Shown: positions 1 through 23,321 of the stretch, one piece after another | How the letters are laid out: every line of letters starts with the position of its first letter | Position numbering within the stretch: the stretch's first letter is position 1 | Source: a virus | Virus record (IMG/VR): IMGVR_UViG_3300029258_003153 | Coordinates: 1-25,917 of that record | DNA: 25,917 nt | Reading direction: 5' to 3' (one strand) | Made by a program: the position numbers and the translations under genes | Notes under the pieces: model-generated | The model's input: the letters and a program-made list of their open reading frames with translations, nothing else | Database searches by the model: none | What the model was told of the DNA's origin: nothing

Positions 1-43
1 CCAAACCACCACTTAGACATACAATCGCTTTTGGTTTACTCAT
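1..43 (-). CDS. queC: QueC, 7-cyano-7-deazaguanine (preQ0) synthase, N-terminal fragment
   Basis: Only the first 14 codons are in the window; the gene runs off the left edge. They read MSKPKAIVCLSGGL, the N-terminal strand and start of the PP-loop ATPase signature SGGxDS of QueC. QueC converts 7-carboxy-7-deazaguanine to preQ0 using ATP and ammonia. The start codon at 41-43 follows an AGAAAGG ribosome binding site. It lies 12 nt after the queE stop, directly behind queD and queE, which strongly supports the assignment despite the short length. The catalytic and zinc-binding parts cannot be checked here. Confidence 0.85.
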   Translation of the reverse strand, partial: MSKPKAIVCLSGGL

Positions 44-55
44 TTCATAACCTTT

Positions 56-730
56 CTATTCTACCCCGATAATCTTATGTATTTGAAGAGATAATATATG
101 TCCAAATTTCTTGCAACTTTCAATAACCGCCTCTAAATTAGCAGACGTCTTGATTGGATCTTTCTCATCCATGGGCTGTAAAAAAATTGGCACATCCCGG
201 AAACGATATAGTCCAATTGGAAGACCATCGTTTTCGTCAAGTTCTCCTGCCCTTCCTACATATTTAGCGGCACTAACACACATCTTTATATCATGGTGAA
301 CAATTGGACCTTTCGGACTACAAATAACAGACATATCATGGTGATTCAAACCTCTAGTGCCACAAGTACCATTAGTTTCCACCTGGGGAAAGAATCCTGC
401 CTCATGTAATCCATTTACCAATTTAGTAATATTTTGACGGAACGGCTCCCCACCAGTTATGACAACAAATTCAGTCGGAATGCAATCAACTATTAAACAA
501 TTAATTAACGAACAACATTGTCGCACAATTTCATCCACTGTCATTTTCTGGCGCACAGAAGTGTAATCTGTATCACAGAAATAACATTTCAAATTACAAC
601 CAGCTAATCTAATAAAGACAGCCGGTGCCCCCGCATCTGGACCTTCCCCCTGAATAGAATAAAAGATATCAGCTACATCTAGAGTTTCACCATTATCACA
701 ACAGGTCTTTTCTATTGGTTGCTCATTCAT
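56..730 (-). CDS. queE: QueE, 7-carboxy-7-deazaguanine synthase (radical SAM)
   Basis: QueE uses S-adenosylmethionine and an iron-sulfur cluster to contract 6-carboxy-tetrahydropterin into 7-carboxy-7-deazaguanine, the second dedicated step of preQ0 synthesis. The 224-aa protein has the family start FYSIQGEG (23-30), the radical-SAM cluster CNLKCYFC (Cys45, Cys49, Cys52; CX3CX2C), the SAM-contacting GGEP (93-96) and a C-terminal LQIHK like the family's LQxHK. Length is normal for QueE. Its ATG overlaps the queD stop in an ATGA, so the two are probably translationally coupled, and queC follows after 12 nt. Nothing essential looks missing. In phages this pathway usually feeds DNA base modification rather than tRNA queuosine, but that use is inferred from context. 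Confidence 0.95.
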   Translation of the reverse strand: MNEQPIEKTCCDNGETLDVADIFYSIQGEGPDAGAPAVFIRLAGCNLKCYFCDTDYTSVRQKMTVDEIVRQCCSLINCLIVDCIPTEFVVITGGEPFRQNITKLVNGLHEAGFFPQVETNGTCGTRGLNHHDMSVICSPKGPIVHHDIKMCVSAAKYVGRAGELDENDGLPIGLYRFRDVPIFLQPMDEKDPIKTSANLEAVIESCKKFGHILSLQIHKIIGVE

Positions 731-1128
731 CGGCTCATCTCCGCCCAGCTATCAGGTGTCTCGTACAACCGGACGGTGACAAGTGTAGTGCCTGGAATTT
801 CCTTCCAAGCATTCCAGAATTCCAGAACCATGTTCTCAGCGGTGGGATTCCCATCTATCTTCATAATGTATACTTTTCCCACTTCCCACATCTCTTGTAC
901 TTTTGGATCATCTCGATTCATTATCAAAGCATGATCCCATTTCTCCATAACAAAATCCTTTATCTGCCTACTAAGAATTTTGAAATCTACCACCATGCCA
1001 TTTTCCAGAACCGGCCCATCAATAGTTACGTCTATTACATAACGATGTCCATGAAAATTAGCACAAGGACCATTGTATTTATACAAACGATGAGCAGCAT
1101 CAAATTCAACTCTTTTAGTTACTTTCAT
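727..1128 (-). CDS. queD: QueD, 6-carboxy-5,6,7,8-tetrahydropterin synthase
   Basis: QueD converts dihydroneopterin triphosphate to 6-carboxy-tetrahydropterin, the QueE substrate. The 133-aa protein keeps the zinc ligands His13 (FDAAHRL), His26 and His28 (HGH), the catalytic Cys22, VDF (47-49), the catalytic pair Asp65-His66 in DHALI, PTAEN (95-99) and the late Glu123 (LYET). This is a complete PTPS-fold enzyme of normal size. The start overlaps the stop of the upstream methyltransferase fusion by ATGA, and its stop overlaps the queE start the same way. No FolE (GTP cyclohydrolase I) is in the window, so dihydroneopterin triphosphate must come from the host or from a phage gene outside it. 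Confidence 0.95.
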   Translation of the reverse strand: MKVTKRVEFDAAHRLYKYNGPCANFHGHRYVIDVTIDGPVLENGMVVDFKILSRQIKDFVMEKWDHALIMNRDDPKVQEMWEVGKVYIMKIDGNPTAENMVLEFWNAWKEIPGTTLVTVRLYETPDSWAEMSR

Positions 1129-2519
1129 TTTCTCACTTTCAATCCAAATCCTTTTGGCTTGGCCCGCAGTGATGTTACGTAATACACCTTGAGCCCTGCC
1201 ATTAATAGTAAGTCAATGTAAAATCTGCCCATGGCTGGAGAAGACTGGCAATAAATAACCTGTTTCACCCCCCTTTCTTCACATTTTTTCTTAAGCACCC
1301 TTGCAAGTTCCTCCTTATCCGGAACTTCAGTTGGATGGATATCATAGAATGCCAAAGCCTCATCATGATAATGTATCCCATAAAGATCGGACAAGATTCC
1401 GTAAGGAATATTCAATTGTTCTGCAAATTTTATTGTCTTCTGGGCATTAGAACCTAGATAAAATTTCTTAGGAAAAGCAACGTCCCCTTGTGTCCCTTTT
1501 GTCCGAGAGCAATTAGAAATCAACATTGTATCCGACCTGGATAACAATTTTATGACTTTCTTATGCCTGGGAACCTTAACGCCGGCGGCTTCAAAATCCT
1601 TCTCCCAATTAGCACTTACCGGTGGTACCAATAATTTCCGTTTCTCAGACTTCTTCTTTCCATCTTTAATGACTTTTTTAGTGGACACGCCATGACCTTT
1701 CTTTTTGCAAATTAGCAATACCTCAGCAGCACCTTCTGGATAAAGAATTGGCATGAACGCCATGAGAAACTTAGATGGTAAGTAATTTTTGAATCTTCGA
1801 TATAAATCTTGTTCCTCAGCAGATTGCGTCCCCATGAACTTTTCAAAGTCCCGAACTTTGCCTACTAGACCATACTCCTCGGTAACTTCAAAACCCACCT
1901 TGTCCAAGGCCTCACGCAATTCCCCCAAGCCCCATTCATAAACATGAGCGGCATATTGAGTATCATAAGGATCTGTCTTATCTTGAGTATTAGGACAAGA
2001 CAGGAACATCCACCCATCGTCCTTCATTAACTCGAAACAATTCTCCAGAGATCGATAACCAACTTCCTTTTGCATGTGCTCAATAGCAGAAGTGTAAATT
2101 ACACAATCAAAAGATTTGTGCTCTAATTTACTAGACATTTCTTCACAAGAACAGACCACTTGTCTAATCGGGAAACTATAATATTCCAAACCTTCATCGG
2201 AAATATTCTTGTTTCCAGACCACCTGGCTTGTTCCTTGAGATTCTTCTCAGAAATGTCTACCCCCACATATTCGACAGATTTTTTTGACCACCTTATCAA
2301 AGGCAGGAGCAACCCCCTGCCACAACAAACATCCAAGACACGTTGCTTGGAACGCATTCTATCGACAGCTACTAGATGTTGAATATAATTCATAACATCT
2401 AGTGAGGAGAAAAATCCATCTCCAAGCTGCCGAAAGAAATTGCGCATTTGGTAAGTAGTGCAATAAACATCTTTAGGGTTTGTATCCCCATCGATCTTTA
2501 GTACGATTTTTCTACTCAT
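1125..2519 (-). CDS. Fusion of class I SAM methyltransferase and CSxxK (DUF6884/YaaA-like) domain
   Basis: The 464-aa protein has two parts joined by a Lys-rich linker (about 281-296). The N-terminal part (about 40-275) is a class I methyltransferase: motif I VLDVCCGRG (61-69), motif II VGVDIS (85-90), and a motif IV region FDCVIYTSAIEHM (137-149). The C-terminal part (about 331-452) carries LISNCSRTK (333-341), YLGS (354-357), LSDLYGIH (376-383) and FYD (391-393). That pattern resembles DUF6884/YaaA-type proteins and the CSxxK domain I recall from archaeosine synthase. Both domains look intact. ATGA overlaps couple it to the gene before it and to queD after it. A role in 7-deazaguanine base modification or insertion is inferred from context only; the methyl acceptor is unknown. 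The two domains are well supported, the shared function is not. Confidence 0.75.
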   Translation of the reverse strand: MSRKIVLKIDGDTNPKDVYCTTYQMRNFFRQLGDGFFSSLDVMNYIQHLVAVDRMRSKQRVLDVCCGRGLLLPLIRWSKKSVEYVGVDISEKNLKEQARWSGNKNISDEGLEYYSFPIRQVVCSCEEMSSKLEHKSFDCVIYTSAIEHMQKEVGYRSLENCFELMKDDGWMFLSCPNTQDKTDPYDTQYAAHVYEWGLGELREALDKVGFEVTEEYGLVGKVRDFEKFMGTQSAEEQDLYRRFKNYLPSKFLMAFMPILYPEGAAEVLLICKKKGHGVSTKKVIKDGKKKSEKRKLLVPPVSANWEKDFEAAGVKVPRHKKVIKLLSRSDTMLISNCSRTKGTQGDVAFPKKFYLGSNAQKTIKFAEQLNIPYGILSDLYGIHYHDEALAFYDIHPTEVPDKEELARVLKKKCEERGVKQVIYCQSSPAMGRFYIDLLLMAGLKVYYVTSLRAKPKGFGLKVRK

Positions 2520-3133
2520 TCTGCTTTGGAGTACTTTCCAGTTTTCTTGTCAAGTTTGACCTTGAAACCAATCTTGGGCATCCAGAGCTTGGCCGTCTTG
2601 GTGTTCTTCTCGGTATCAGGGTCGACACCGCAAGCGGTGATCTCTTCACCCATCTCTTCCAAAGTAGCACCACCATCTCGGCTGACCATGCGGATGCAGA
2701 CTTCCTTCTTGGTAAGTTTCTTCTCTTTCTTCTTACCTTTCTTTTTGTCCTTCTTGGCCTTCTTCTTGGCCTCGACCTCTTCATCGACCTCAACTTCTCC
2801 GTCGATTTCCTCGGCTTCATCGTCCTCGGCTTCGTCGTCCTCATCCTCATCGTCGTCCTCATCGTCGTCAACTTCATCAACGACTTTGATTTCGTCGGCT
2901 TCAGCGGGGTCAGTGACAATTTCCACTTCTTCCTCACTTGCAGCCATGGCCGCAAGTAGAGCATTCAACTTCTCTTCGTCTTCGGTTCCCTCTTCGACCT
3001 CGATTTCGGATTCCTTGGCAAGTCCAACGACTTCCGCCAATTTGCGGGTCATCCGTTTCTTGTCCCATTTCGTGGCGTTCTTATATCCAAGAGCAGTAGC
3101 CAACGAAATCACATCCTCACGTAAAACTTTCAT
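2516..3133 (-). CDS. Acidic/basic two-block protein, first gene of the deazaguanine operon
   Basis: A 205-aa protein of unknown function with striking charge blocks. Residues 1-45 could be a small helical SAP/HeH-like nucleic-acid-binding segment. Residues 76-121 are almost solid Asp/Glu, and 123-143 are almost solid Lys. The tail (144-205), with IRMVSRDGGATLEEMGEEI and a basic strand-rich end, resembles short winged-helix tails of the DUF3489 type. The ATG at 3131-3133 is preceded by an AAAAAGGAAAG ribosome site and a consensus promoter. Its stop overlaps the next start by ATGA. It could be a DNA-binding regulator, or a DNA-mimic or histone-like protein; I cannot decide. It is more GC-rich than the queE region. 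Confidence 0.65.
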   Translation of the reverse strand: MKVLREDVISLATALGYKNATKWDKKRMTRKLAEVVGLAKESEIEVEEGTEDEEKLNALLAAMAASEEEVEIVTDPAEADEIKVVDEVDDDEDDDEDEDDEAEDDEAEEIDGEVEVDEEVEAKKKAKKDKKKGKKKEKKLTKKEVCIRMVSRDGGATLEEMGEEITACGVDPDTEKNTKTAKLWMPKIGFKVKLDKKTGKYSKAE

Positions 3134-6191: not shown

Positions 6192-6428
6192 TTACTCATC
6201 CCAACTGAGGAGATCTATGCAAGCATTTATTTCGTCGACCACGCCTTCTTCATTGGTTTCCATGGCATTAATTTCCAGCCAATCTAAACATTCTTGCAAG
6301 TTCCTGCCGGTATCTCCACCAAGATTCCTGGCCGCTAGTATGGCCAATTCTTCGTATTTTTCGTTTCTGGCCGCTTTGTAAGCCAATTCCATCAAGGTAG
6401 TAATAGGGGCTAATTTACTCTTCTTCAT
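6192..6428 (-). CDS. Small helical protein of unknown function (78 aa)
   Basis: I do not recognise it. The start at 6426-6428 (MKKSKLAPITTL) is chosen because a strong GAGAAAGGAAAG ribosome site lies just upstream; an upstream extension would run through that site and the preceding gene. The protein is helical and acidic toward the C-terminus (ECLDWLEINAMETNEEG, ending LLSWDE). It begins 16 nt after the preceding gene, shares its promoter and is followed by the terminator at 6104-6145. Confidence 0.6.
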   Translation of the reverse strand: MKKSKLAPITTLMELAYKAARNEKYEELAILAARNLGGDTGRNLQECLDWLEINAMETNEEGVVDEINACIDLLSWDE

Positions 6429-6444
6429 CGGAATCTTTCCTTTC

Positions 6445-6672
6445 TCAAAAAAGACGAGTGCCGTAAGCCGGATAAGCCAGCGGGGCACCATATTTTTGCC
6501 GGAGCGCATTCGCCCGGCGGAGTTCAGACTTGGCCCGTACCAAAGGCATCAATTTCTCGGCTGCCCATATAAGTGCCTCAGTAGGGGCACCCATTATTCC
6601 CACTCCGTAGAGTTCGTAAAGAACATCTTCGATGCTCAATGAACGGGCTTTTTCAGCAGCAAGAACGGCCAT
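6445..6672 (-). CDS. Small helical protein of unknown function (75 aa)
   Basis: I do not recognise it. It is Ala/Leu-rich and helical (MAVLAAEKARSLSIEDVL at the start) and ends in YPAYGTRLF. It is supported by a strong promoter (6718-6746), a conserved leader and a GAAAGAAAGGAAG ribosome site placed just before the ATG at 6672. It is the first gene of a two-gene unit. Confidence 0.65.
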   Translation of the reverse strand: MAVLAAEKARSLSIEDVLYELYGVGIMGAPTEALIWAAEKLMPLVRAKSELRRANALRQKYGAPLAYPAYGTRLF

Positions 6673-6717
6673 GTCTCACTTCCTTTCTTTCCCCTGACCT
6701 CGCCCCTCAACGCTTTT

Positions 6718-6746
6718 ATTATAGTCTATTGGGCTATCGAGGACAA
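6718..6746 (-). promoter_or_regulatory. Cassette promoter with operator-like half-sites (6.7 kb)
   Basis: -35 TTGTCC (6741-6746), 17-nt spacer, -10 TATAAT (6718-6723). A 21-bp imperfect inverted repeat (6719-6739) overlaps the -10 box. The leader after it carries GGGGCGAGGTC and AAAGAAAGGAAG, as in the promoters at 13.2 and 15.97 kb. The -35 lies in the end of the glycosyltransferase gene. Confidence 0.8.
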
Positions 6747-7465
6747 GTATTTTCCAGCATTTTTCTGCCAAAGAAACGCCATTTTTTAATAGATTGTATG
6801 GCATTAATTAAATCAAGACGGTCAGGTCGCATGGCTAAACACCGGAAAATACTGGGCTCTGCATCGAACCGATTGTTAGAAATGATCCAATCTTTTGTCC
6901 TATCTATGCACACCATGGGAACTTGCTTGCGCTGGGCTTTTAATGCTGCCCAAATATCAGACATATTGCCTACTGGGAAATCAAGAATATTAAATTGAAT
7001 TGTGTCCGCATGATAAGCCATGGTGCCGGTACCAAGAATGTGCACAATAATATCTTGCGGAACTTCCTCACAATAACTAAAAACAAAACGATCGCAATAA
7101 TATTTAGTAGGTGTCGTTGTAGTAAAAGAAGCACCATGAACACCGACAATGGCCTTGCGATCATATTGTTCAATTTTGTCGATCATTCGACGAACATAAT
7201 CCCAAGGATAAATCATATCATCATCAAGAGTAAAATGATAACCTTCTACTTTATCCGCCCACATAAATTTGCCGGCATCTTTCATGTCACCAAAATCTTC
7301 TGCAGTTAATACCTCAACTTTCGATTCCCGTCTCAAAAAATAAGGAACGTGATTTCTATAATTTAGATAAACCTGAAGCTTATCCACTTGAGAAAGAATC
7401 CGTTTACAAACCATTTGCAATCCACGCCGACGAGTGCGTAAAGACGCTACACTAGCAGTAATCAT
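6734..7465 (-). CDS. GT-A type glycosyltransferase with DDD motif
   Basis: A 243-aa protein. The N-terminus (MITASVASLRTRRRGLQM) matches the start of GT2-like enzymes. The sugar-nucleotide/metal motif is TLDDDMIYP (79-87), followed by an HG at 110-111 (VGVHGAS) and a TGTMAY segment (about 146-151), as in GT-A transferases of phages and capsule loci. The acceptor is unknown; it could glucosylate phage DNA bases, a protein or a surface polysaccharide. It is the last gene of the sigma/SNF2/primase operon and overlaps the 66-aa gene before it by ATGA. That is far from the glycosyltransferase cluster at 16-24 kb, so its substrate may differ. Confidence 0.75.
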   Translation of the reverse strand: MITASVASLRTRRRGLQMVCKRILSQVDKLQVYLNYRNHVPYFLRRESKVEVLTAEDFGDMKDAGKFMWADKVEGYHFTLDDDMIYPWDYVRRMIDKIEQYDRKAIVGVHGASFTTTTPTKYYCDRFVFSYCEEVPQDIIVHILGTGTMAYHADTIQFNILDFPVGNMSDIWAALKAQRKQVPMVCIDRTKDWIISNNRFDAEPSIFRCLAMRPDRLDLINAIQSIKKWRFFGRKMLENTCPR

Positions 7466-7662
7466 GAACGTAGCCTAAAAAAATCAATGTCAAGCGAAGT
7501 TAGTACTAATTTCGCTTTAGTACGTAAATCATCATGGGAATCAATTATAACAGAAGCAACAAAATCACGGAACAGTTCTTTCTCCAGAATACTGGCTCTT
7601 TCAAAATCATCACGACAATTTTCAATTAAATCGAGGCGATTACGAATCTCAGAAATATCCAT
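7462..7662 (-). CDS. Small protein of unknown function (66 aa)
   Basis: A 66-aa, probably all-helical protein (MDISEIRNRLDLIENC...). No motif is recognised. It is coupled to the glycosyltransferase by an ATGA overlap and starts 1 nt after the small lipoprotein gene, so it is part of the operon. Its start has AAAAGGA upstream. Confidence 0.6.
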   Translation of the reverse strand: MDISEIRNRLDLIENCRDDFERASILEKELFRDFVASVIIDSHDDLRTKAKLVLTSLDIDFFRLRS

Positions 7663-7663
7663 A

Positions 7664-7810
7664 CTAATCCTTTTCTAAATCATAATAAATACGAATTTCA
7701 GTATTATCAAGGTCATAAGGATTAACACTAATGGCAACCCTAGCACCCCGATCGGCAGAGCAGCCCACCACCGCACACCATAGAACTAAAAAAATAAGCA
7801 ATTTTCTCAT
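7664..7810 (-). CDS. Tiny predicted lipoprotein (48 aa)
   Basis: A 48-codon gene packed exactly between the primase stop and the 66-aa gene, with AAGGAAG upstream of its ATG at 7808-7810. The protein begins MRKLLIFLVLWCAVVGC: positive residues, a hydrophobic stretch and a lipobox VVGC ending at Cys17 with Ser at +2, which in Gram-negatives favours the outer membrane. The mature part would be about 32 residues, including DLDNTEIRIYYDLEKD. It could be a spanin subunit, a superinfection-exclusion factor or an envelope-stress protein; it is not proline-rich like Rz1, so no function is assigned. Confidence 0.7.
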   Translation of the reverse strand: MRKLLIFLVLWCAVVGCSADRGARVAISVNPYDLDNTEIRIYYDLEKD

Positions 7811-7811
7811 T

Positions 7812-8702
7812 TTACACTTCCTTGCAAAAATGTTTCCTAATTTCCTCTATTTCCGATGGTTCACAATCCGCCGGATCATTGCCAGTTTCTAATTCGAGCA
7901 AAGTCGTTTCCCCAGGGAAACAAGACAATTCTTTATACAATTCCCTTGCTTTTCTTTTAGCCTGTTTCTCATTGTCTAAGCATATTGCTCTAATAGGGTA
8001 CTTAGACATTTTCTTTATCTGTTGAGATGTATAGTTCAATCCGAATAATGCTACTGCACCAGGGCCAATAGCCCAGGCATCCAGTACACCTTCTGTTATA
8101 ACAATAGAATGACGAGCGTAATCCTCACCATAAAGCAAATGCTTAATTGGCGTACGTTCTTGCTCTGGTTTTGCGTGCACATATTTAGCAGCACTTTCAC
8201 TTCCAATGGATCGTGTCGTCCATGTCTCCAGTATCCCATGGTGGTAGACAGGTATCCATAAACGAAATTGCAATATACCAAGCCTAGATGTAGCTTGGAC
8301 ACCCCATAATTTTCTAATGTTATCGGCGCTAAATCCGCGTTGTAAGAGGTACTTAGTCTCTAGGCTTCCTATATCGGTCAAACCTTTTGGGACTTGTAAA
8401 CGCCCATGTAAGCCGCCTTCTCGGCCCGATTTGCCCATCCCAGAACCAAAAGATCCTAGCTTGTCACGAATGACCTTAAAAGAAAGCCCTGTAAGATTAG
8501 CAAGAATCTTGAATATTGATTGCGGTCCACATTGCCAACAATTGGCAAAACCTTCATCAATATTAATGCCCAAGTGGTATTTTCCAGTGCCTTCCCCACA
8601 ATGAGGACAATCGATTCCTATCCACCCTTGACGGACATTTTTATGACTAGCACTGTCTTTGTAAGGAATTCGATGTTCATCTAGAAAGTCTTTAATACTC
8701 AT
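7812..8702 (-). CDS. DnaG-like primase (zinc finger plus TOPRIM)
   Basis: A 296-aa primase that should make RNA primers for phage DNA synthesis. The N-terminal zinc finger has CPHC (Cys32, Cys35) and CWQC (Cys55, Cys58). A linker and core region (about 100-190) follow. The TOPRIM domain has the catalytic Glu204 in ITEGVLDAW and an acidic motif LDNE (242-245). It is shorter than host DnaG (about 580 aa) and lacks the C-terminal helicase-binding domain, as is common in phage primases. It starts 2 nt after the SNF2 gene and is followed by the tiny lipoprotein. Confidence 0.85.
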   Translation of the reverse strand: MSIKDFLDEHRIPYKDSASHKNVRQGWIGIDCPHCGEGTGKYHLGINIDEGFANCWQCGPQSIFKILANLTGLSFKVIRDKLGSFGSGMGKSGREGGLHGRLQVPKGLTDIGSLETKYLLQRGFSADNIRKLWGVQATSRLGILQFRLWIPVYHHGILETWTTRSIGSESAAKYVHAKPEQERTPIKHLLYGEDYARHSIVITEGVLDAWAIGPGAVALFGLNYTSQQIKKMSKYPIRAICLDNEKQAKRKARELYKELSCFPGETTLLELETGNDPADCEPSEIEEIRKHFCKEV

Positions 8703-16032: not shown

Positions 16033-16275
16033 TTAGATAGATTCTGTCCGCTCTAATTCAAATCTATCCACCCCGAATAATGCGCACATTTTATCTAAAT
16101 GAACTCGAGTAGGAATCTGGTGTCCTGTCTCCCAAGAAGCAATAGTTACTTGGTGAACACCCATGAGTATCGAGAATTGGGACTGAGTAACGCCAAGCTT
16201 ATTCGCCCTCAAATCGGCGATGCGTTTTCCCATTAGAATTTTGAGCTCTTCAAATGATGCTAATTTGTTCTTCAT
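16033..16275 (-). CDS. XRE-family helix-turn-helix regulator
   Basis: An 80-aa protein with a Cro/C1-type HTH: RIADLRANKLGVTQSQFS (18-35), then MGVHQVTIASWETGHQIP (38-55), typical of XRE DNA-binding domains, and a short tail with no dimerisation domain. It is the last gene of the 25.9-16.0 kb run (start overlaps the glycosyltransferase stop in TAATG) and lies directly before the 15.97-kb promoter. It is the only recognisable repressor in the window, so it is the first candidate to bind the operator-like repeats. That link is inferred. Confidence 0.85.
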   Translation of the reverse strand: MKNKLASFEELKILMGKRIADLRANKLGVTQSQFSILMGVHQVTIASWETGHQIPTRVHLDKMCALFGVDRFELERTESI

Positions 16276-16970
16276 TAATAAGACCTTTCCGAATGCCGAA
16301 CTCTGTATACTCCTGGTAATTTAATAGGCAAGATTTTCCCCATGGTAAGACAATATTTTCGATAAGCTATGTCGCATCTAGTAAGCCAAGACATTATTGG
16401 ATTCGGTTCCACCCATGCTGTATCCTTCAAATATCCGTGCTCTCTAGCAAAGTCCCCTTGCACAATTTGTACACCACCAATGGCTTTCCAATACCTTTTT
16501 ACCCTAAAATCAGCAGGATCAATGATATCAACAGGAATATTTCCTTGTTCGGCCGCAAGCAACATTTTGTCCCCATTTTCATGTGATATGCTAAATTGAA
16601 TCCATTCTGGGTAAATCATAGCAACATCCGCCGGCCAATCGAATTTAGCGAGTGTATCTAGTACTGATCCAAGGAAACAATAATCAGCATCACAAAACCA
16701 AACGATATCACATTCAGTTTGTAAAGCCGCTTTATTTCTGCCTAAAGCCCGGTGACTGAACTCATCATCTTCTAAATATAAAGGATGCACAAATGAATGC
16801 TTATTTATTTCCTCCATTACTAATTCATCCGAAGCCGAGCAAGGAACAGTTATGCGCACAAAATTTTCTGGTAAATACCTTAAAATCGATGCTATTTGCA
16901 ACCTCAGACAGTAAGCATAATGAGGCAACTTCTTAGCATAGCAATGCGTAATAATATCAATGCTCTTCAT
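16275..16970 (-). CDS. GT-A glycosyltransferase (DAD motif)
   Basis: A 231-aa protein with a Rossmann-like start (MKSIDIITHCYAKKLPHYAY), the nucleotide-sugar/metal motif FCDADYCF (92-99) and a WKAIGGVQIVQGDFA segment (about 161-175) as in GT-A enzymes. Donor and acceptor are unknown. It overlaps the KdsB-like gene by 14 nt and the XRE gene by 1 nt. It may use a product of this cluster, but that cannot be read from the sequence. Confidence 0.75.
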   Translation of the reverse strand: MKSIDIITHCYAKKLPHYAYCLRLQIASILRYLPENFVRITVPCSASDELVMEEINKHSFVHPLYLEDDEFSHRALGRNKAALQTECDIVWFCDADYCFLGSVLDTLAKFDWPADVAMIYPEWIQFSISHENGDKMLLAAEQGNIPVDIIDPADFRVKRYWKAIGGVQIVQGDFAREHGYLKDTAWVEPNPIMSWLTRCDIAYRKYCLTMGKILPIKLPGVYRVRHSERSY

Positions 16971-17703
16971 TTAGTAATTCCCTATACTTTAATAAGTCTT
17001 CCTCCGTATTAACTCCCAGGGGCATTCTGGGAATATTAATTGAATGAATCTTAAAGCCGTTTTCTAACCATGTTAATTGCTCCAGACTATATGACTTGCT
17101 CTTCTCAGTAGGACGATAACTTGCCAATTTACTTAATATTTTGACTGGAAAACAATATATTCCGCAATGATATTTTTGTCCCACCATGGGCAATCTCGAG
17201 AACCACATGCAATGACTAGTAGTTTCACTAGTGACTACCTTCGTTATATTTGGATTTTCTTTATCTTCCCCTTTTGGTGGTCTATCAGCAACAATAGTAC
17301 CAATTTCATTCTTCATTCTTGTTTGATGAATTAGTAAATCAATTGCGGTAAAAGAAATCAATGGTTCGTCGACTTGCCAATTAACTACGATATCATATTG
17401 TTTTCCCATGGACATTATTTTACTAATGGCATGGGAGCACCGCACGGTTCCATTAGGAATATCCCCTTCTATTTTAAGAAAATTCATTCTATGAACATTA
17501 CAGTAATCTTGAATTTCTGGTGAATCCGAAATTACCATTACTTTAGAAGCAAGGGAACCTTGCGCCCGCTCATACGTTCTTTGCAGCAAAGTCTTTCCTT
17601 CACAATCTAATAATGCTTTCCTATGTAACCTAGAACTTTCAATGCGACATGGAATCATTATAATACTTCTATGGAAAATTGAATTTATCTCAGAAATATT
17701 CAT
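16957..17703 (-). CDS. kdsB: KdsB-like CMP-ulosonate (CMP-Kdo) cytidylyltransferase
   Basis: KdsB activates 3-deoxy-D-manno-octulosonate with CTP to CMP-Kdo. The 248-aa protein, the size of E. coli KdsB, has IPCRIESSRLHRKALLDCEG (17-36), matching the family's IPAR.S.RLPGKPL.D..G. It also has NWQVDEP (108-114; family NVQGDEP), HCGIYCF (179-185), LEQLTWLENG (208-217) and GVNTEEDL (230-237). The start ATG at 17703 is preferred over a GTG eight codons upstream; it has GAGGAG at a rather long spacing. It overlaps the sulfotransferase-like gene by 14 nt. There is no KdsA or KdsD here, so Kdo itself must come from the host. Other 2-keto-3-deoxy sugars could be the true substrate. Confidence 0.85.
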   Translation of the reverse strand: MNISEINSIFHRSIIMIPCRIESSRLHRKALLDCEGKTLLQRTYERAQGSLASKVMVISDSPEIQDYCNVHRMNFLKIEGDIPNGTVRCSHAISKIMSMGKQYDIVVNWQVDEPLISFTAIDLLIHQTRMKNEIGTIVADRPPKGEDKENPNITKVVTSETTSHCMWFSRLPMVGQKYHCGIYCFPVKILSKLASYRPTEKSKSYSLEQLTWLENGFKIHSINIPRMPLGVNTEEDLLKYRELLNEEH

Positions 17704-18220
17704 AATTAATAAAGATCTCCTCTTCACATTCTAGAATGTCTAAACGTAAACGCCTAGGCAATTGTCTTGTTATAGTTGACTTTGGATTATTCCTTTTTAT
17801 ATTGTCCAAGAGCACCGGGGAAATCCCAAATAAATCCGCAACTTCTATAAAAGACCATGGAAGATCCTCGAATCGGTGGGTAATATCTGCCACATATTTT
17901 CGGTGTAGTTCCACAAGAGCCCCAGGACAGTTATTAAGGTAAGATTCTATAAAACTTTCATAATCATTATAATTTTTAGAATAAAAAGGCAGCATATGAC
18001 CATTTAATTCTTCTCCAGCTTCGAATATTGCCGTCAGCCAATTGTATGGATTTCGAATTAAAGTAAACCGCAAAGCGTTAGATTGTTCCGTGCTCTCCCA
18101 TGGTGTAAAAGCCTTCTCATGAAAAGCCGGCCCTAGACCAGCTAATTGACAGGCTTGGACGTACCAATCAGCACCAGTTAATGGTGGACTCGCTAACTGT
18201 ATCTGTCCGTAATCGATCAT
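17690..18220 (-). CDS. Sulfotransferase-like protein (divergent, PAPS-type)
   Basis: A 176-aa protein. SPPLTGADW (11-19) fits the 5'-phosphosulfate loop (PxxTGxxW) and LIRNPYNWLTA (54-64) fits the 3'-phosphate loop (RxPxxxxxS-like, but with Thr at the last place). It is shorter than typical sulfotransferases, and the spacing between loops is short. It could transfer sulfate from PAPS, or be a degenerate relative. Its start at 18220 (GGGAG upstream) lies 53 nt inside the preceding methyltransferase gene. Moderate confidence in family, low in activity. Confidence 0.55.
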   Translation of the reverse strand: MIDYGQIQLASPPLTGADWYVQACQLAGLGPAFHEKAFTPWESTEQSNALRFTLIRNPYNWLTAIFEAGEELNGHMLPFYSKNYNDYESFIESYLNNCPGALVELHRKYVADITHRFEDLPWSFIEVADLFGISPVLLDNIKRNNPKSTITRQLPRRLRLDILECEEEIFINYEYF

Positions 18221-18788
18221 CTTCGTTCTCCCGTTTTACGAATAACCAGACAAGATGACCGCCAGTGGTAATTTCGTAATTATGTTGCTTAGCAAATTTA
18301 TCGACAGTAGGTTTGACTTGAAATTTTCCTTTTCTATCACCTACTCCATTATAATCATGCCCACTTACCAAACCACCTGGCTTGACTTTTGGATACCAAT
18401 TGTTAAGATCTTTCCATACGTCAGCAGCAGAATGACCAGCATCAATATAAACGAAATCCAAGGAAGCATCTGGGATATGTTGCGCCGCGATACTAGAATC
18501 ACTAATCATTAAGAATTTGCGTTCCCAGTACTCCACTGTTCGAGTATGGGCTTCACATAAAGCAACATTGATTTTTTCTTGTTCCCAAGATCCATTCGTA
18601 AATTCGGGATAGTAAAAATCAATCATATATAGAAATAAAGAAGGAAATTTATTCAATAAGTATTGAGATAGTTCCCCCCGCAATACACCTACCTCTGCCC
18701 CTATTAATTGTGCATCTTGAGAAAATAAATTTTCTATCCATTTTGCCAGGATTCTAAATGAGCCCTTGTTTATAATTTTCATGGTCAT
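18168..18788 (-). CDS. Class I SAM methyltransferase (Methyltransf_24-like), paralogue A
   Basis: A 206-aa protein. Motif I AEVGVLRG (31-38), then SLDFVYIDAGHS (109-120) and KPGGLVSGHDY (136-146), the signature of Methyltransf_24-type enzymes, which often methylate sugars in antibiotic or polysaccharide pathways. The start at 18788 is chosen because it makes an ATGA overlap with paralogue B; the longer frame begins at a TTG. About 20 C-terminal residues beyond the paralogue's end are read over the start of the sulfotransferase-like gene. Closely similar to 18785-19333, pointing to duplication. Confidence 0.8.
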   Translation of the reverse strand: MTMKIINKGSFRILAKWIENLFSQDAQLIGAEVGVLRGELSQYLLNKFPSLFLYMIDFYYPEFTNGSWEQEKINVALCEAHTRTVEYWERKFLMISDSSIAAQHIPDASLDFVYIDAGHSAADVWKDLNNWYPKVKPGGLVSGHDYNGVGDRKGKFQVKPTVDKFAKQHNYEITTGGHLVWLFVKRENEDDRLRTDTVSESTINWC

Positions 18789-19333
18789 CTTTTCTGAAAT
18801 CCCCAATTAGTTAAATTATGAGTGAAAGAATATTCATGCTTTTTTGTCCATTCATTTATTGCTTCTGTGCAGCCAGGAAATTTTTTATACCTGGCTAAAT
18901 AATCATGTCCACCTACGAACCCACCTGAACGAACTTTAGGATACCAATGGTCTAAATCTTCTAGAACAGATTGTTTAGAATGATCGGCATCGATATAAAC
19001 AAAATCTAATACCCCATCTGGGATTAAGTGAACAACTTGTGTTGATTTTCCTACCAATATAATTCTGCGCCTATGAAAAGAAACTGTATTTTCGTAGGCG
19101 TCTTTCATTATACCGAGCATTTTTTGCTGATTCCATGGTCGTCTTTGTGGGAGCCAGGCATCAACCATATACAATTCCATATTAGGGAAATTAGATAGAA
19201 GCTTATTAGATAGCAATCCTTTCCATATTCCAACTTCACACCCAAATTTAGGATCTGGACAGATGCTTTTAATCATGTTGACAGCAATTTCTCGCATCTT
19301 TTCGAAATGGGCTTCTATCCTAGAATTTGCCAT
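18785..19333 (-). CDS. Class I SAM methyltransferase (Methyltransf_24-like), paralogue B
   Basis: A 182-aa protein. GCEVGIWKG (31-39) is motif I; LDFVYIDADHS (109-119) and SGGFVGGHDY (136-145) repeat the signature of paralogue A. The order MELYMVDAW and LYMIDFYY in the two paralogues confirms homology. It starts with a 1-nt TAATG overlap with the upstream methyltransferase. Substrate unknown; a sugar hydroxyl in this cluster is plausible. Confidence 0.8.
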   Translation of the reverse strand: MANSRIEAHFEKMREIAVNMIKSICPDPKFGCEVGIWKGLLSNKLLSNFPNMELYMVDAWLPQRRPWNQQKMLGIMKDAYENTVSFHRRRIILVGKSTQVVHLIPDGVLDFVYIDADHSKQSVLEDLDHWYPKVRSGGFVGGHDYLARYKKFPGCTEAINEWTKKHEYSFTHNLTNWGFQKR

Positions 19334-19959
19334 TACCGTACCTCAAAGCATTCAACAAAATTATGCTTGAAAACACGATCAACACGATCATGATAAACTT
19401 CCAAGAATTTTGTCAATCCTTCTAAAACATGATTATCTTTTTTAATACGATTATCTACGTCATCAAAGATCATCCACCCACCCTTCTTCATGAGAGTAAG
19501 CACATTTTTTGCATCATCAAAAACAGCATAATCATGGTGATTTCCGTCAATCATGCAAATATCAACAGAATTTTTCTTAATTCCAGCATACCCCATTCTT
19601 TTCCGCATCCTAGGGAATATTTCGGCACTAACAGCACGCACCAATTGACATTTCCCAGAATGTTGCCATTCTTTAGTGTTATAGAATGCCCGATTTTTTA
19701 CAGCGAGCATGTCCTCTTCACTCAATTTCGACGTCATTAACCATGGGTCAACCCCCACCGCACGGCTGTCTGGATGAGTAAGAACATACCGCAACATCCA
19801 GCACAAAGATTGTGCTTCGAATACTCCTAATTCCAAATAAGTAGCCGGAACATCTTGCCACCTGGGCAAGATAAAATTACGGAATGTAGGATAGTTTCTA
19901 TTTAGAAACCAATTTTTAGTAAATTTGAAATCCCCTTCTAATCCTAATTCTCTAACCAT
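19333..19959 (-). CDS. Class I SAM methyltransferase
   Basis: A 208-aa protein with YLELGVFEAQS (41-51; SAM motif I), VGVDPW (68-73), SVDICMIDGNHHDYAVF (131-147) and KKGGWMIFDDVDN (158-170). It is related to the two Methyltransf_24-like paralogues but clearly more distant, with a shorter C-terminus. It starts 3 nt after the 298-aa glycosyltransferase. Three neighbouring genes of this type suggest a multiply methylated product. Confidence 0.8.
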   Translation of the reverse strand: MVRELGLEGDFKFTKNWFLNRNYPTFRNFILPRWQDVPATYLELGVFEAQSLCWMLRYVLTHPDSRAVGVDPWLMTSKLSEEDMLAVKNRAFYNTKEWQHSGKCQLVRAVSAEIFPRMRKRMGYAGIKKNSVDICMIDGNHHDYAVFDDAKNVLTLMKKGGWMIFDDVDNRIKKDNHVLEGLTKFLEVYHDRVDRVFKHNFVECFEVR

Positions 19960-19962
19960 GAT

Positions 19963-20859
19963 TTATCCTCGATATCGTTTCTTTATTGATAAGAATTCTT
20001 CTAGTTTATCCATCCACCTATTTTGAATAAGACTAATCCATTCGGTTACATTGCCCGTATTTTCGTCTAAACACTTTTGAAAAATAGGCCACCACCAATC
20101 ATAGCCTACTCTAGACTTATCAATACGCACATTACTATCACCATGATAATGCTTTACAACGACATCTTTTTCAGGTAGTATCTTACTTATAAATTTCGGA
20201 CTGGTATTGAATTCCCCTTGCTCTCCCAACATGACGAATAATTTGCTAGGGGCAAATAATGGCATAAGCGTGTGCAAAACCACTTCATCAGCAATAAATA
20301 ATTTCCGAGCCACGTTCGTCCACTCCGACCAGACGGGCAAAACTGGGGTGTCGGGTCTACAAGCCCATACACCACCGTTTACAGACGGCCATGGGTTAAG
20401 TAACAGTTCTTCCACTACCTTTTGGTGGATGCGCTTGTATTGGCGCAAATCTTTTAACCTATTTGCAATGATACCTGTATTAGTTGTCCAATTATTAAAT
20501 CTGGTACCAGCAAAACCTGTTTTCTCAGCAGCATCGAATAACTCAACTATTCTAGTGGAATGAATAGTAGTATCAGCGTCTAAATATAGAAGAATATCAC
20601 GTTCTCCACATTGGTCTTTCGCCAATTCTATTTTATCCATAAATTGAGCATTTTTTAACCGATGCGCCGGTTCCCGGGACTTTACTTGGATATTGAGATT
20701 TTTATCTTCAGCAATTAACTTAACAATATCTAAAGATTCCTTCCAAGCAAATACTACCACTTCACCATGATATTGCTGGCGCAATGTCTTTAGTGAACAC
20801 AAGAGGTAGGGCAAATGAGCGGGGCCGCTCATTAAATAGAAAATTCTTTTACTTAACAT
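19963..20859 (-). CDS. GT-A glycosyltransferase (DAD motif, GT8-like)
   Basis: A 298-aa protein. KRIFYLMSGPAHLPYLLCSL at the N-terminus, the donor/metal motif LLYLDADTT (90-98) and WPSVNGGVWACRP (about 157-169), where GG helps hold the acceptor site, fit GT8-like GT-A enzymes. A late HYHGD (about 243-247) may be a metal-binding histidine segment as in GT8. It overlaps the FkbM gene by 11 nt. Confidence 0.75.
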   Translation of the reverse strand: MLSKRIFYLMSGPAHLPYLLCSLKTLRQQYHGEVVVFAWKESLDIVKLIAEDKNLNIQVKSREPAHRLKNAQFMDKIELAKDQCGERDILLYLDADTTIHSTRIVELFDAAEKTGFAGTRFNNWTTNTGIIANRLKDLRQYKRIHQKVVEELLLNPWPSVNGGVWACRPDTPVLPVWSEWTNVARKLFIADEVVLHTLMPLFAPSKLFVMLGEQGEFNTSPKFISKILPEKDVVVKHYHGDSNVRIDKSRVGYDWWWPIFQKCLDENTGNVTEWISLIQNRWMDKLEEFLSIKKRYRG

Positions 20860-21532
20860 TTTGTTCTTCCTCGAACTCTTTTACCGTATACGGACAGATG
20901 CAATATTGAGATTGAAATATTGAAGGTTTAGTATATAAGGCATCATATTGTCCACCCTTCATTGTATGAACCCATGAGCGGTAGAAACCTGCTTGCCTTA
21001 ATTTATCATGGACTTCCCCTGGTGATGGCCAAGTAGGGCTAGGTGGCTTTGGTGTCATTTCCACATTAACAGCGGTAGTATATTCTAAAATCCTAGTAGC
21101 ACCATGGAGAACTGCAAGTTCACTGCCTTCGCAATCCAACCATAGCATAACTTCTTTGCCAGTTAGATCACCAATTTCATTGTCTAAAGTACTTGCTTCT
21201 ACTTTTTGAATATTATGACGGACTTCCTCAGGAAATTCTAATACCGAAGAACCATCTTTATGATTAGGTTTTACATAAAGATCTATTACCCCATGTTTAT
21301 CCGCTATTGCCTTATTAATCAAAGTTCCAGGATAATTTGATATCTTGTTATAAGAAGTAGTGCAGGCCTCAAAACCAATGAATTCACAATCCGGCCATTC
21401 TTCTTTCATTACATCCACTTCTTGGTGGTAAAATCCTATTCCAACTTGAATAACACAAGTAGGCTGCCAGCCTAGCCGAGCCACTTCCAATGCGGCGGAA
21501 ACACCACTACGACGTAAAAATCTACTCACCAT
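20849..21532 (-). CDS. FkbM family methyltransferase
   Basis: A 227-aa SAM enzyme. VIQVGIGFYHQEV (27-39) is motif I; FIGFEA (51-56) and VEASTLDNEI (111-120) follow; WLDCEGSELAVLHGA (131-145) is the FkbM hallmark (family I-K-x-D-x-E-G). FkbM-type enzymes methylate hydroxyls of sugars and polyketides. It is placed between a GT-A and a sulfotransferase, supporting glycan modification. Confidence 0.85.
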   Translation of the reverse strand: MVSRFLRRSGVSAALEVARLGWQPTCVIQVGIGFYHQEVDVMKEEWPDCEFIGFEACTTSYNKISNYPGTLINKAIADKHGVIDLYVKPNHKDGSSVLEFPEEVRHNIQKVEASTLDNEIGDLTGKEVMLWLDCEGSELAVLHGATRILEYTTAVNVEMTPKPPSPTWPSPGEVHDKLRQAGFYRSWVHTMKGGQYDALYTKPSIFQSQYCICPYTVKEFEEEQNVK

Positions 21533-21541
21533 TATATCTTC

Positions 21542-22177
21542 CTAAAAAGTATACTTGAAAGTATCTATATCTTCTTCATAAAATTTGGTAACAGCATCTT
21601 TGATTTCTTTAGTATAGTATTCTCGGTACGGTTTATGAACCGACACATTCACATGAGGCAACGGCTCAAATTCGAGACCTACATTTTCAAGCAATTTCGC
21701 CCAATCTTCATTCACATTCTCGAACTTACCTATAAAATCAATATAAGGGCGCAGCCATGTTACCTGAGGCAAAATGGCTTGAAAATGACTTTTGGAAGTC
21801 GACATTTTCAATACGCCTAAATATTCATGGTCAATGACCACTCTTTGTATAAAAGTTTTCCAACTTTTCAAACAAGGATTAGATACTCTATCCCGAGATA
21901 AACGAATACGACAAAAGAAATGATAACAAGAAACTAATCTATCCCATGGATTTCGCACGAATGCAAACTTATAAGAATCTTTCCACCAATTCTTATCGAT
22001 ATTCGTTCTTCTGAGCATGAAATCAATATCCGGAGAACCAATGAAAACGATGTGATTCATCTTTTCAAAATCAAAATCCTCATCCATAATATGCTTGCCA
22101 CCACGAAGACGCAAAAGCGTTTGCATAGAAGTGCCAGCCGTTTTAGGAACGTGTAAAAAAACTAAATTCTTTTTCAT
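21542..22177 (-). CDS. Sulfotransferase family 2-like protein
   Basis: A 211-aa protein with FLHVPKTAGTSM (7-18), the 5'-phosphosulfate binding loop, FAFVRNPWDRLVS (71-83), the 3'-phosphate binding loop, and FIGKFENV (about 148-155), all standard for carbohydrate sulfotransferases using PAPS. Length is normal for the bacterial members. It should sulfate a carbohydrate (or possibly tyrosine or protein glycan) in the cluster's product. PAPS has to come from the host. It is ATGA-coupled to the preceding GT-A gene. Confidence 0.85.
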   Translation of the reverse strand: MKKNLVFLHVPKTAGTSMQTLLRLRGGKHIMDEDFDFEKMNHIVFIGSPDIDFMLRRTNIDKNWWKDSYKFAFVRNPWDRLVSCYHFFCRIRLSRDRVSNPCLKSWKTFIQRVVIDHEYLGVLKMSTSKSHFQAILPQVTWLRPYIDFIGKFENVNEDWAKLLENVGLEFEPLPHVNVSVHKPYREYYTKEIKDAVTKFYEEDIDTFKYTF

Positions 22178-22953
22178 ACTAATGCTTTAGCAACTGCTTT
22201 TCGTATGTTTTCCATGGTTGTCCAATGTTCCCACCCTCTAGTTTTCATTTGTGGCCGCTTAATTTCCATGCCTAATCGTGTCGCAATGTACCACATATAC
22301 CCATCTTGAGAAGGAACAGGCAAGAAGCCTTCCCCACATGATTCTTCCGCAAATCTAGAGCAATCTTTAGTAAAATTTGTATTAAAAAGTCCACACCAAC
22401 TAATTATGCGCTTATGAGACAATTTGTCAGCGTCTGGATCTATTGGTAAGCGCAATGGCTCAGAATTGAATTTTAAGTGTGCACACCCTTCCGCCCACCT
22501 ATCCAATAATTGCATCTGGTTCTTGGGTCGAGTAAATCCCCATGGCTGAGCAATTATTGCCGGCGTGCCATTAAACCAATCTTCAGAAATCCAATCATCT
22601 TGTCCATTAGCAACCGTATCCACATCTAACTTGAGCCAATAATCAGTCTTGACATGCATGGCTGGAACATGTACAAATCCCGCCAACATTTTATACCTTT
22701 GTGGATTACCAAACTTTTCTTCTGTTAATCTAGGATAAGGTTTATCCCCTGGTGGCCAAGGTATGCAAGTTAAATTCGGATGGTCAATGGCCTCAAATAT
22801 CTCATAAGAATGGAGACTAAATCTATCAAAGAATATCAACATCGGATGCTTTAGTAACGTCGACTTATGGCGTTTCCAAGTAGGCCATACCAACTTTAGT
22901 TGCTCAAGATGCTTTCTGTCAACAGCACAAACTAATGTATAACTAGGAATCAT
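22174..22953 (-). CDS. Putative GT-A glycosyltransferase (DVD motif)
   Basis: A 259-aa protein. The N-terminal MIPSYTLVCAVDRKHLEQ and the DxD-like LKLDVDTV (107-114) suggest a GT-A fold; GFTRPKNQMQLLDRW is also seen. I do not recognise a specific family. It is ATGA-coupled to the cupin before it and to the sulfotransferase after it. Role as a transferase is probable; donor and acceptor unknown. Confidence 0.6.
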   Translation of the reverse strand: MIPSYTLVCAVDRKHLEQLKLVWPTWKRHKSTLLKHPMLIFFDRFSLHSYEIFEAIDHPNLTCIPWPPGDKPYPRLTEEKFGNPQRYKMLAGFVHVPAMHVKTDYWLKLDVDTVANGQDDWISEDWFNGTPAIIAQPWGFTRPKNQMQLLDRWAEGCAHLKFNSEPLRLPIDPDADKLSHKRIISWCGLFNTNFTKDCSRFAEESCGEGFLPVPSQDGYMWYIATRLGMEIKRPQMKTRGWEHWTTMENIRKAVAKALV

Positions 22954-23321
22954 TCTGGGGCTCCTATAAAATTTTCACCACCCACTGACCCATGGCGGTC
23001 TATGTCATTAGGATCTAATTCTACCCAATATACTTCCAATGCACATCCATCAGTTAAGGCTTCGAATCTATGCTCAATACCTGGTGGGATATCACATATA
23101 TCCCCTTCCTCTAAAATAGTCTTATCAACTGTTTTATTCACACACTGAGAAATGCGCAATACACCATTCAACACTACAAAACGATTGAATTTAGAATTAT
23201 GAGTATGTTGACTGCAATACCCACCCTTATTGAAATGAATTAAATGACATTCAACATTATTACCATGAAATATGGGACGGGTAGTTCCCCATATCTTTCC
23301 TTGCGTTGCTCCGAAAAGCAT
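22950..23321 (-). CDS. Cupin-fold protein
   Basis: A 123-aa single-domain cupin. Motif 1 is GGYCSQHTHNSKFNRF (33-48; His39, His41), motif 2 is GDICDIPPGIEHRF (73-86; His84). With three histidines it probably binds a metal. In glycan clusters such cupins act as sugar epimerases/isomerases or as small-molecule binders; the exact activity is not readable. It overlaps the following GT gene by ATGA. Confidence 0.75.
   Translation of the reverse strand: MLFGATQGKIWGTTRPIFHGNNVECHLIHFNKGGYCSQHTHNSKFNRFVVLNGVLRISQCVNKTVDKTILEEGDICDIPPGIEHRFEALTDGCALEVYWVELDPNDIDRHGSVGGENFIGAPE

Follow-up and report, generated by a model that had tools for sequence, protein, structure and literature searches.

What is a methyltransferase joined to a CSxxK domain doing in an operon for 7-deazaguanine synthesis? 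The question is raised by a 464-amino-acid fusion protein encoded in the IMG/VR virus record IMGVR_UViG_3300029258_003153, a linear fragment of 25,917 bases that was analysed in full and is called the window here. Our proposal, to which we give a probability of roughly 0.65, is that this protein tailors a 7-deazaguanine in DNA in two steps, acting on its C7 group. The kind of pathway, phage 7-deazaguanine DNA modification, is already known, and phage 7-deazaguanines shield DNA from restriction enzymes. The fusion has the following parts; relatives are cited by locus number.

1125–2519, minus strand: fusion coding sequence, an open frame with an ATG start, encoding a class I methyltransferase, a linker and an ArcS/DpdC-like C-x3-K domain
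1695–2519, minus strand: methyltransferase domain, residues 1–275, with motif I DVCCGRGL, motif IV YTSAIEHM and the N-terminal block TTYQMRNF..DGFF..LDVMNYIQH
1629–1694, minus strand: Lys-rich linker, residues 276–297, with low predicted local distance difference test (pLDDT) scores, in the gap between the end of the methyltransferase family (about residue 275) and the start of standalone DpdC-like homologues
1164–1628, minus strand: ArcS/DpdC-like domain, residues 298–452, 32–40% identical to standalone genes in L002, L024, L058, L061 and L065
1497–1511, minus strand: C-x3-K motif CSRTK, residues 337–341, with Cys337 as proposed nucleophile and the spacing of the 2q07 ArcS signature
1128–1163, minus strand: C-terminal tail AKPKGFGLKVRK, a possible clamp-binding motif (GFGL plus 4 residues) that resembles the end of the L030 DpdA

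An earlier note on this DNA had described a class I methyltransferase fused to a CSxxK domain, overlapping QueD by ATGA from upstream, and had placed it in a phage preQ0 operon. The architecture was borne out by the open reading frame (ORF) at 1125–2519, its CSRTK motif and a match of residues 55–214 to Methyltransf_23 (Pfam PF13489; 1.2e-14, 54.8 bits against a cut-off of 27); PF03291 also scored above its cut-off (28.1 bits against 26.6). The operon context follows from the adjoining QueD and QueE genes and from linkage in relatives. We found relatives in 27 IMG/VR loci by a scan with the fusion, in 53 by a profile scan, and in seven loci of bacterial and archaeal assemblies, including two Faecalibacterium strains and a Nitrosotalea contig. 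Nearly all encode the methyltransferase as a standalone gene ending near query residue 273; fusion is rare. Linkage was assessed in 45 non-redundant methyltransferase loci, window included, in which gene counts are lower bounds (the DpdA and methyltransferase of L062 were missed by ORF picking). DpdA, called through phrog_887 (1e-44 to 1e-59 for most members tested), is present in 35 of the 45, within 1.5 kb of the methyltransferase in 33, and phage DpdA is the commonest methyltransferase neighbour by gene clustering. Some 7-deazaguanine gene occurs in 42 of the 45, the remaining three being 8- to 18-kb fragments. The Nitrosotalea locus (L065) has a DpdA of another kind (Pfam TGT, 1.2e-12) directly before the methyltransferase, so the link is not confined to one phage lineage. 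The role of deazaguanine methyltransferase considered in the earlier note is therefore plausible, whereas its other suggestion, that the fusion might itself be a new insertion enzyme, can be set aside because relatives hold a separate DpdA beside the methyltransferase. A ParB-like gene lies directly upstream of DpdA in most of the gut-type loci L009–L023, which encode no sliding clamp (for example L010:709–1209, PHROG 1e-53).

A 23-row alignment of the methyltransferase family has over 50 invariant columns, among them most of the TTYQMRNF–DGFF–LDVMNYIQH block; the conserved motif IV is YTSxxEHM, and the restriction-modification type of DNA-methyltransferase motif IV (DPPY/NPPY, PCQ) is absent. 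The AlphaFold model of the fusion has pLDDT values mostly above 90 in its methyltransferase part, which matched many known methyltransferases with tied scores (VIA Z 16–18). CmoM and Trm9 are among the top rows (Z 16–17), alongside many other methyltransferases, and mRNA cap guanine-N7 methyltransferases are among both the fold and the profile neighbours. DpdM, a phage dPreQ1 methyltransferase, is likewise a methyltransferase of the phage 7-deazaguanine pathway. Its fold is reportedly new for nucleic-acid methylases, whereas the window enzyme is a plain class I Rossmann methyltransferase.

The C-terminal domain has homologues encoded as separate genes in seven relatives (L002, L024, L058, L060, L061, L065 and L151), and QueC accompanies the gene in five of these (L002, L024, L058, L061 and L065). 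In L065 the methyltransferase gene is followed, with an ATGA overlap, by the DpdC-like gene, which is the domain order of the fusion. The motif Cys, Ser and Lys are invariant across nine diverse family members, as are a Y-G pair and a YD pair. The C-terminal part of the fusion modelled poorly on a shallow alignment; the L061 homologue was folded in its place (pLDDT 90.7), and the fold results are those of L061. Its one clear match was 2q07, A. fulgidus AF0587 (VIA Z 9.2, next row 5.9; root-mean-square deviation 2.9 over 111 residues, 14% identity), which gives the homologue a DUF5591 fold. AF0587 shows a match to archaeal arcTGTs in their DUF5591 region and bears PCTARKPYLTSRTH, which fits the ArcS signature PC-x3-KPY-x2-S-x2-H. 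ArcS acts on preQ0 in tRNA, a nucleic-acid-borne base like the one proposed for the C-terminal domain. The window domain differs in lacking the full signature (NCSRTK...FPKKFYLGS retains C-x3-K, not KPY) and any TGT-like or PUA domain. On the modelled fold of its homologue, we conclude that the domain belongs to a C-x3-K family that shares the fold of an ArcS-signature protein.

This family also leads to DpdC of the bacterial dpd islands. DUF6884 scores of the homologues were 21.8 bits for L061 and 27.8 for L065 (under the cut-off of 30) and 38.8 for L151 (over it), and L074 has a full DUF6884 gene (112.6 bits) between QueE and QueC within a DpdA operon. The resemblance to DUF6884 and to an archaeal deazaguanine domain seen in the earlier note thus holds through L151 and L061. 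DpdC is labelled DUF6884 in one study (PMC11888242) and given as DUF328 in another, in which it hydrolyses dPreQ0 to dADG, an amide, in DNA (PMC12839542). Like the window domain, it is reported as a C-x3-K-type domain; DpdA and the preQ0 pathway accompany it, and its substrate is preQ0 in DNA. Unlike DpdC, which we compared by description only, the window domain is fused to a methyltransferase and phage-borne, and no dpdB or restriction genes were recognised with it. PADLOC gave a DpdC match for neither the window nor two homologues, PADLOC and PHROGs gave no name for the domain, and no DpdC-like genes were found among the phage isolates or plasmids searched. YaaA is missing from the fold rows listed for the L061 model, which excludes nothing. 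A PDB profile search gave chance matches only, to ribosomal L18. Separately, L041:5666–6949 encodes a 427-amino-acid protein with a sub-threshold DUF6884 score (22.3 bits) and a weak YaaA match; it overlaps the methyltransferase start by 4 bases, and Que genes were not found in that contig.

The relatives fall into classes by how the modified base would be supplied. Class A loci carry FolE, QueD and QueE with the methyltransferase but no QueC, mostly with DpdA; their phage-encoded route would therefore end at 7-carboxy-7-deazaguanine (CDG). The window, L002, L024, L061 and L065 form class B, in which QueC occurs together with a DpdC-like gene or domain. In class C (L010, L012–L017, L026 and L063), DpdA and the methyltransferase are followed directly by a QueF-like gene, often with a queuosine-precursor transporter; these small proteins are called QueF-like through profile links (1.8e-5, 94% probability) to one protein that itself scores 25.2 bits with PF14489, just below the cut-off. 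L009, L018 and L021 are class C-like, with no nitrile enzyme found. Class C phages would use a salvaged base together with the QueF-like protein. The Faecalibacterium prophages (L063 and L067, with DpdA, the methyltransferase and a QueF-like gene) probably rely on a salvaged base, because no clear QueC was found in the host genomes. L052:1916–3016 joins the methyltransferase to a QueF-like T-fold domain (PF14489, residues 290–346, 22.3 bits against a cut-off of 27.3) and, from sequence, appears as a second independent fusion to a putative nitrile-processing domain, besides that of the window. L022 and L045 have QueC with a DJ-1/PfpI-family gene close to the methyltransferase (L022:11187–11831, L045:8041–8508) instead of a DpdC-like gene, the only QueC-positive loci of that kind; the DJ-1/PfpI protein is a possible alternative nitrile-acting enzyme.

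QueC is unusually scarce beside this methyltransferase. Among loci with QueE, QueC occurs in 7 of 26 with the methyltransferase and in 52 of 60 DpdA loci without it (Fisher p 1e-7, only a guide because related phages are not independent). The comparison draws on 80 DpdA loci (L068–L147) fetched regardless of the methyltransferase, which is present in only two of them, both already known. Six-frame searches, which repeated the QueC and DpdC-like calls for 47 records, found QueC in 45 of 50 DpdA-side records and in 5 of 47 methyltransferase/DpdC-like-side records. Systems with this methyltransferase are thus usually without QueC, unlike phage DpdA systems. Of the 19 QueE-positive methyltransferase loci that lack QueC, only L052 has a QueF-like gene. 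No QueF scored above the Pfam cut-off in the 47 relative records, a search of which the L052 fusion, confirmed separately, was not part; those QueF matches that were checked by position lay inside FolE (shared T-fold), except for the L026 QueF-like gene, also confirmed separately. On the methyltransferase tree the supply classes interleave, with a minimum of 8 class changes against 14.4 when shuffled. Classes A and B are mixed in the window's clade, where the window and L002 are nested amid class A phages; a shared substrate at the carboxyl level is proposed chiefly for this reason.

The C termini of these proteins provide a further line of evidence. Q-x-x-L-F is the canonical motif of β-clamp clients. 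In loci that encode a sliding clamp, the DpdA, methyltransferase and DpdC-like proteins end in xLF, xLL, FDL or similar in 26 of 33 cases, against 13 of 302 other ORFs and 1 of 38 FolE, QueD, QueE and QueC proteins; in loci without a clamp the same three kinds of protein show the pattern in 3 of 67. The search pattern was picked after the first tails had been seen, which makes the first set circular in part; the isolates were looked at later. Three successive genes of L061 end in KLSLF, TRKLF and ENKLF, the L024 methyltransferase ends in QKSLF and its two DpdAs in QNRLF and QTKLF, and in the Nitrosotalea locus the methyltransferase ends in TSLFED and the DpdC-like protein in ESLFDF. In L030, the window's sister in the methyltransferase tree, DpdA ends in KGMKGFGL or similar (...RQGMKGFGL). 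In the set of 80 loci, Q-x(1,2)-[LMIF]-F falls within the C-terminal ten residues of 26 of 67 DpdAs and of 5 of 1,219 other ORFs. The tails may bind the sliding clamp, and the pattern groups the methyltransferase and the C-terminal domain with DNA-acting enzymes. We found no report of clamp-binding tails on these enzymes in the open-licence literature.

Tails of this type occur on DpdAs of many phages independently of the methyltransferase, including isolates (L153, L155–L158): JenP2 ends in RLQDLFDE, Iggy in QRIQELF, R7M in ADIQELF, BcepGomr in EQQGLFV and Dp-1 in RQRRLF. Phage DpdA systems such as CAjan, 9g, Dp-1 and phi47:1 share FolE, QueD, QueE, in some cases QueC, and DpdA with the systems described here, but the methyltransferase is absent from the inspected loci of JenP2, Iggy, R7M, BcepGomr, Dp-1 and phi47:1. 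Cellulophaga phage phi47:1 (L154) has a DpdA without a clamp-like tail; among its neighbours, gp53 (6233–6886), a Cys-rich protein adjoining DpdA, ends in DNQVNLF and ParB (7606–8070) in SVNLF.

In the route that we propose, preQ0 would be made by FolE, QueD, QueE and QueC, and DpdA, probably encoded just past the contig end, would swap guanine in DNA for preQ0. Cys337 would attack the nitrile, which would be hydrolysed as reported for DpdC; for QueF and QueF-L a Cys-thioimide with the nitrile is established, including on preQ0-tRNA (PMC5485725). The methyltransferase would then methylate, on DNA, the C7 group so formed. CDG would be inserted directly in phages that lack QueC, and phages with QueC would arrive at the same carboxyl level via the C-terminal domain. 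Modification would probably occur behind the replication fork, judging from the clamp-binding-like tails of relatives with their own sliding clamp. The favoured product would be the methyl ester of 7-carboxy-7-deazaguanine or an N-methyl amide; naming the ester specifically is tentative, with the odds leaning against it. CmoM and Trm9, tRNA carboxyl methyltransferases of the same fold class, esterify carboxylates on modified bases, in their case uridine side chains, and their nearness to the model, in rows tied with many unrelated methyltransferases, gives weak support to an ester. The fullest version of the proposal is more doubtful: an undescribed base, 7-methoxycarbonyl-7-deazaguanine, would be made on DNA from inserted CDG or hydrolysed preQ0, with DpdA, methyltransferase and nitrile enzyme tethered to the clamp and hypermodification coupled to replication. 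Phages with this methyltransferase probably carry a DNA base that is not yet described.

The methyltransferase might instead N-methylate the side chain left by nitrile processing (aminomethyl, amidine or amide), as DpdM does in making mdPreQ1, a base reportedly present in phage DNA. The QueF-like gene directly after the methyltransferase in class C and the joining of the two in L052 fit this idea, as does QueF/QueF-L chemistry, which yields an aminomethyl or formamidine group (PMC5485725). We nevertheless regard it as unlikely, given the QueE-positive loci that have neither QueC nor, L052 apart, a QueF-like gene, and the intermixing of classes A and B within the window's clade. With no QueF above the Pfam cut-off in the 47 relative records, methylated preQ1 is unlikely to be the main case. 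Methylation at another position (a ring nitrogen, the 2-amino group or a normal base), with the enzyme travelling with deazaguanine genes as a second anti-restriction layer, would account for the cap guanine-N7 neighbours and the PF03291 score, and all three supply classes would have a ring position in common. What makes this distinctly unlikely is that the family is linked almost without exception to deazaguanine genes, that it has nitrile-processing partners, twice as fusions, and that YTSAIEHM stands in place of a DPPY or PCQ motif.

It is similarly improbable that the C-terminal domain is a non-catalytic, YaaA-like module that recognises DNA or a base and guides the methyltransferase. DNA binding is known in the YaaA family and archaeal arcTGTs retain the domain without the C-x3-K motif, but the invariant Cys, Ser and Lys, the separate genes in L058, L060 and L151, whose fragments contain no methyltransferase, and the way in which the domain mostly tracks nitrile supply all argue for catalysis. 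Methylation of the free base before insertion, with the fusion as a precursor enzyme, would suit its overlap with QueD in an operon with QueE, enzymes that work on free metabolites. We consider this very unlikely, since the methyltransferase and DpdC-like tails group with those of DpdA and not with those of FolE, QueD, QueE and QueC.

Several observations weigh against a two-step tailoring enzyme. The support is confined to gene linkage, domain architecture, fold resemblance and the tail pattern; DpdA, FolE and nearly all of QueC fall outside the window record. The C-terminal domain of the window scores 17.8 bits with DUF6884, under the Pfam cut-off of 30, and profile comparison with archaeal DUF5591 gave a probability of 1.2%, short of significance. 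In the fragments of L060 and L151 the DpdC-like gene is present but QueC is not. As a clamp motif the window tail, GFGLKVRK, is not clean; it only resembles the ...KGFGL of the L030 DpdA. The structural neighbours of the methyltransferase are tied (Z 16–18), and a carboxyl would not be its substrate if the class C QueF-like protein reduces or amidates the nitrile. Finally, 50,697 phage records gave only four, remote matches to the methyltransferase domain (26% identity at most), and no isolate with this enzyme.

The fusion belongs to a run of minus-strand genes from 3133 to 56 that are joined by ATGA overlaps (fusion/QueD at 1125–1128, QueD/QueE at 727–730), with these neighbours:

2516–3133, minus strand: acidic conserved neighbour gene, whose stop overlaps the fusion start via ATGA
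727–1128, minus strand: QueD (6-carboxytetrahydropterin synthase), 133 amino acids; PF01242 (PTPS) 3.6e-33, phrog_2389 5e-28
56–730, minus strand: QueE (7-carboxy-7-deazaguanine synthase, radical S-adenosylmethionine), 224 amino acids; phrog_2076 4.2e-48, CxxxCxxC motif
1–43, minus strand: start of a QueC-like gene truncated by the contig end, first 14 codons, MSKPKAIVCLSGGL, with a PP-loop SGG motif

The earlier note had called QueD, QueE and QueC clear. Pfam and PHROGs agree for the first two; for QueC the word was too strong, as the 14-codon stub fits QueC as a PP-loop start but is shorter than a family test needs. It had also remarked that no DpdA is visible and suggested searching the rest of the genome for DpdA and FolE. 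Neither is present in the 25,917-base linear fragment, but their absence says little, because the record ends inside QueC. A QueE-based scan gave three distant relatives only, and no close relative spanning the missing left end. The C-terminal segment of the acidic neighbour recurs just upstream of the methyltransferase in L002 and L004–L007, and its full length in L027. Elsewhere in the window, a run of ORFs at 16275–23321 that by eye are glycosyltransferase-, small methyltransferase-, FkbM-, sulfotransferase- and cupin-like suggests a surface-glycan cassette, and a Ser-rich ORF (24849–25917) is truncated at the right contig end.

Three things appear to be new: a methyltransferase family of ordinary class I fold with ties to DpdA, the joining of this methyltransferase to an ArcS/DpdC-type domain, and the clamp-like tails. 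A widespread methyltransferase that accompanies DpdA, mostly in phages whose route apparently ends at CDG, suggests one more modified base and provides a named enzyme to study. Since QueC and nitrile enzymes are paired in their loss or gain, the question of its substrate can be tested directly. The clamp-like tails, found also on the DpdAs of isolates such as Dp-1, whose DNA has been analysed, and JenP2, a relative of 9g, would explain the timing of insertion.

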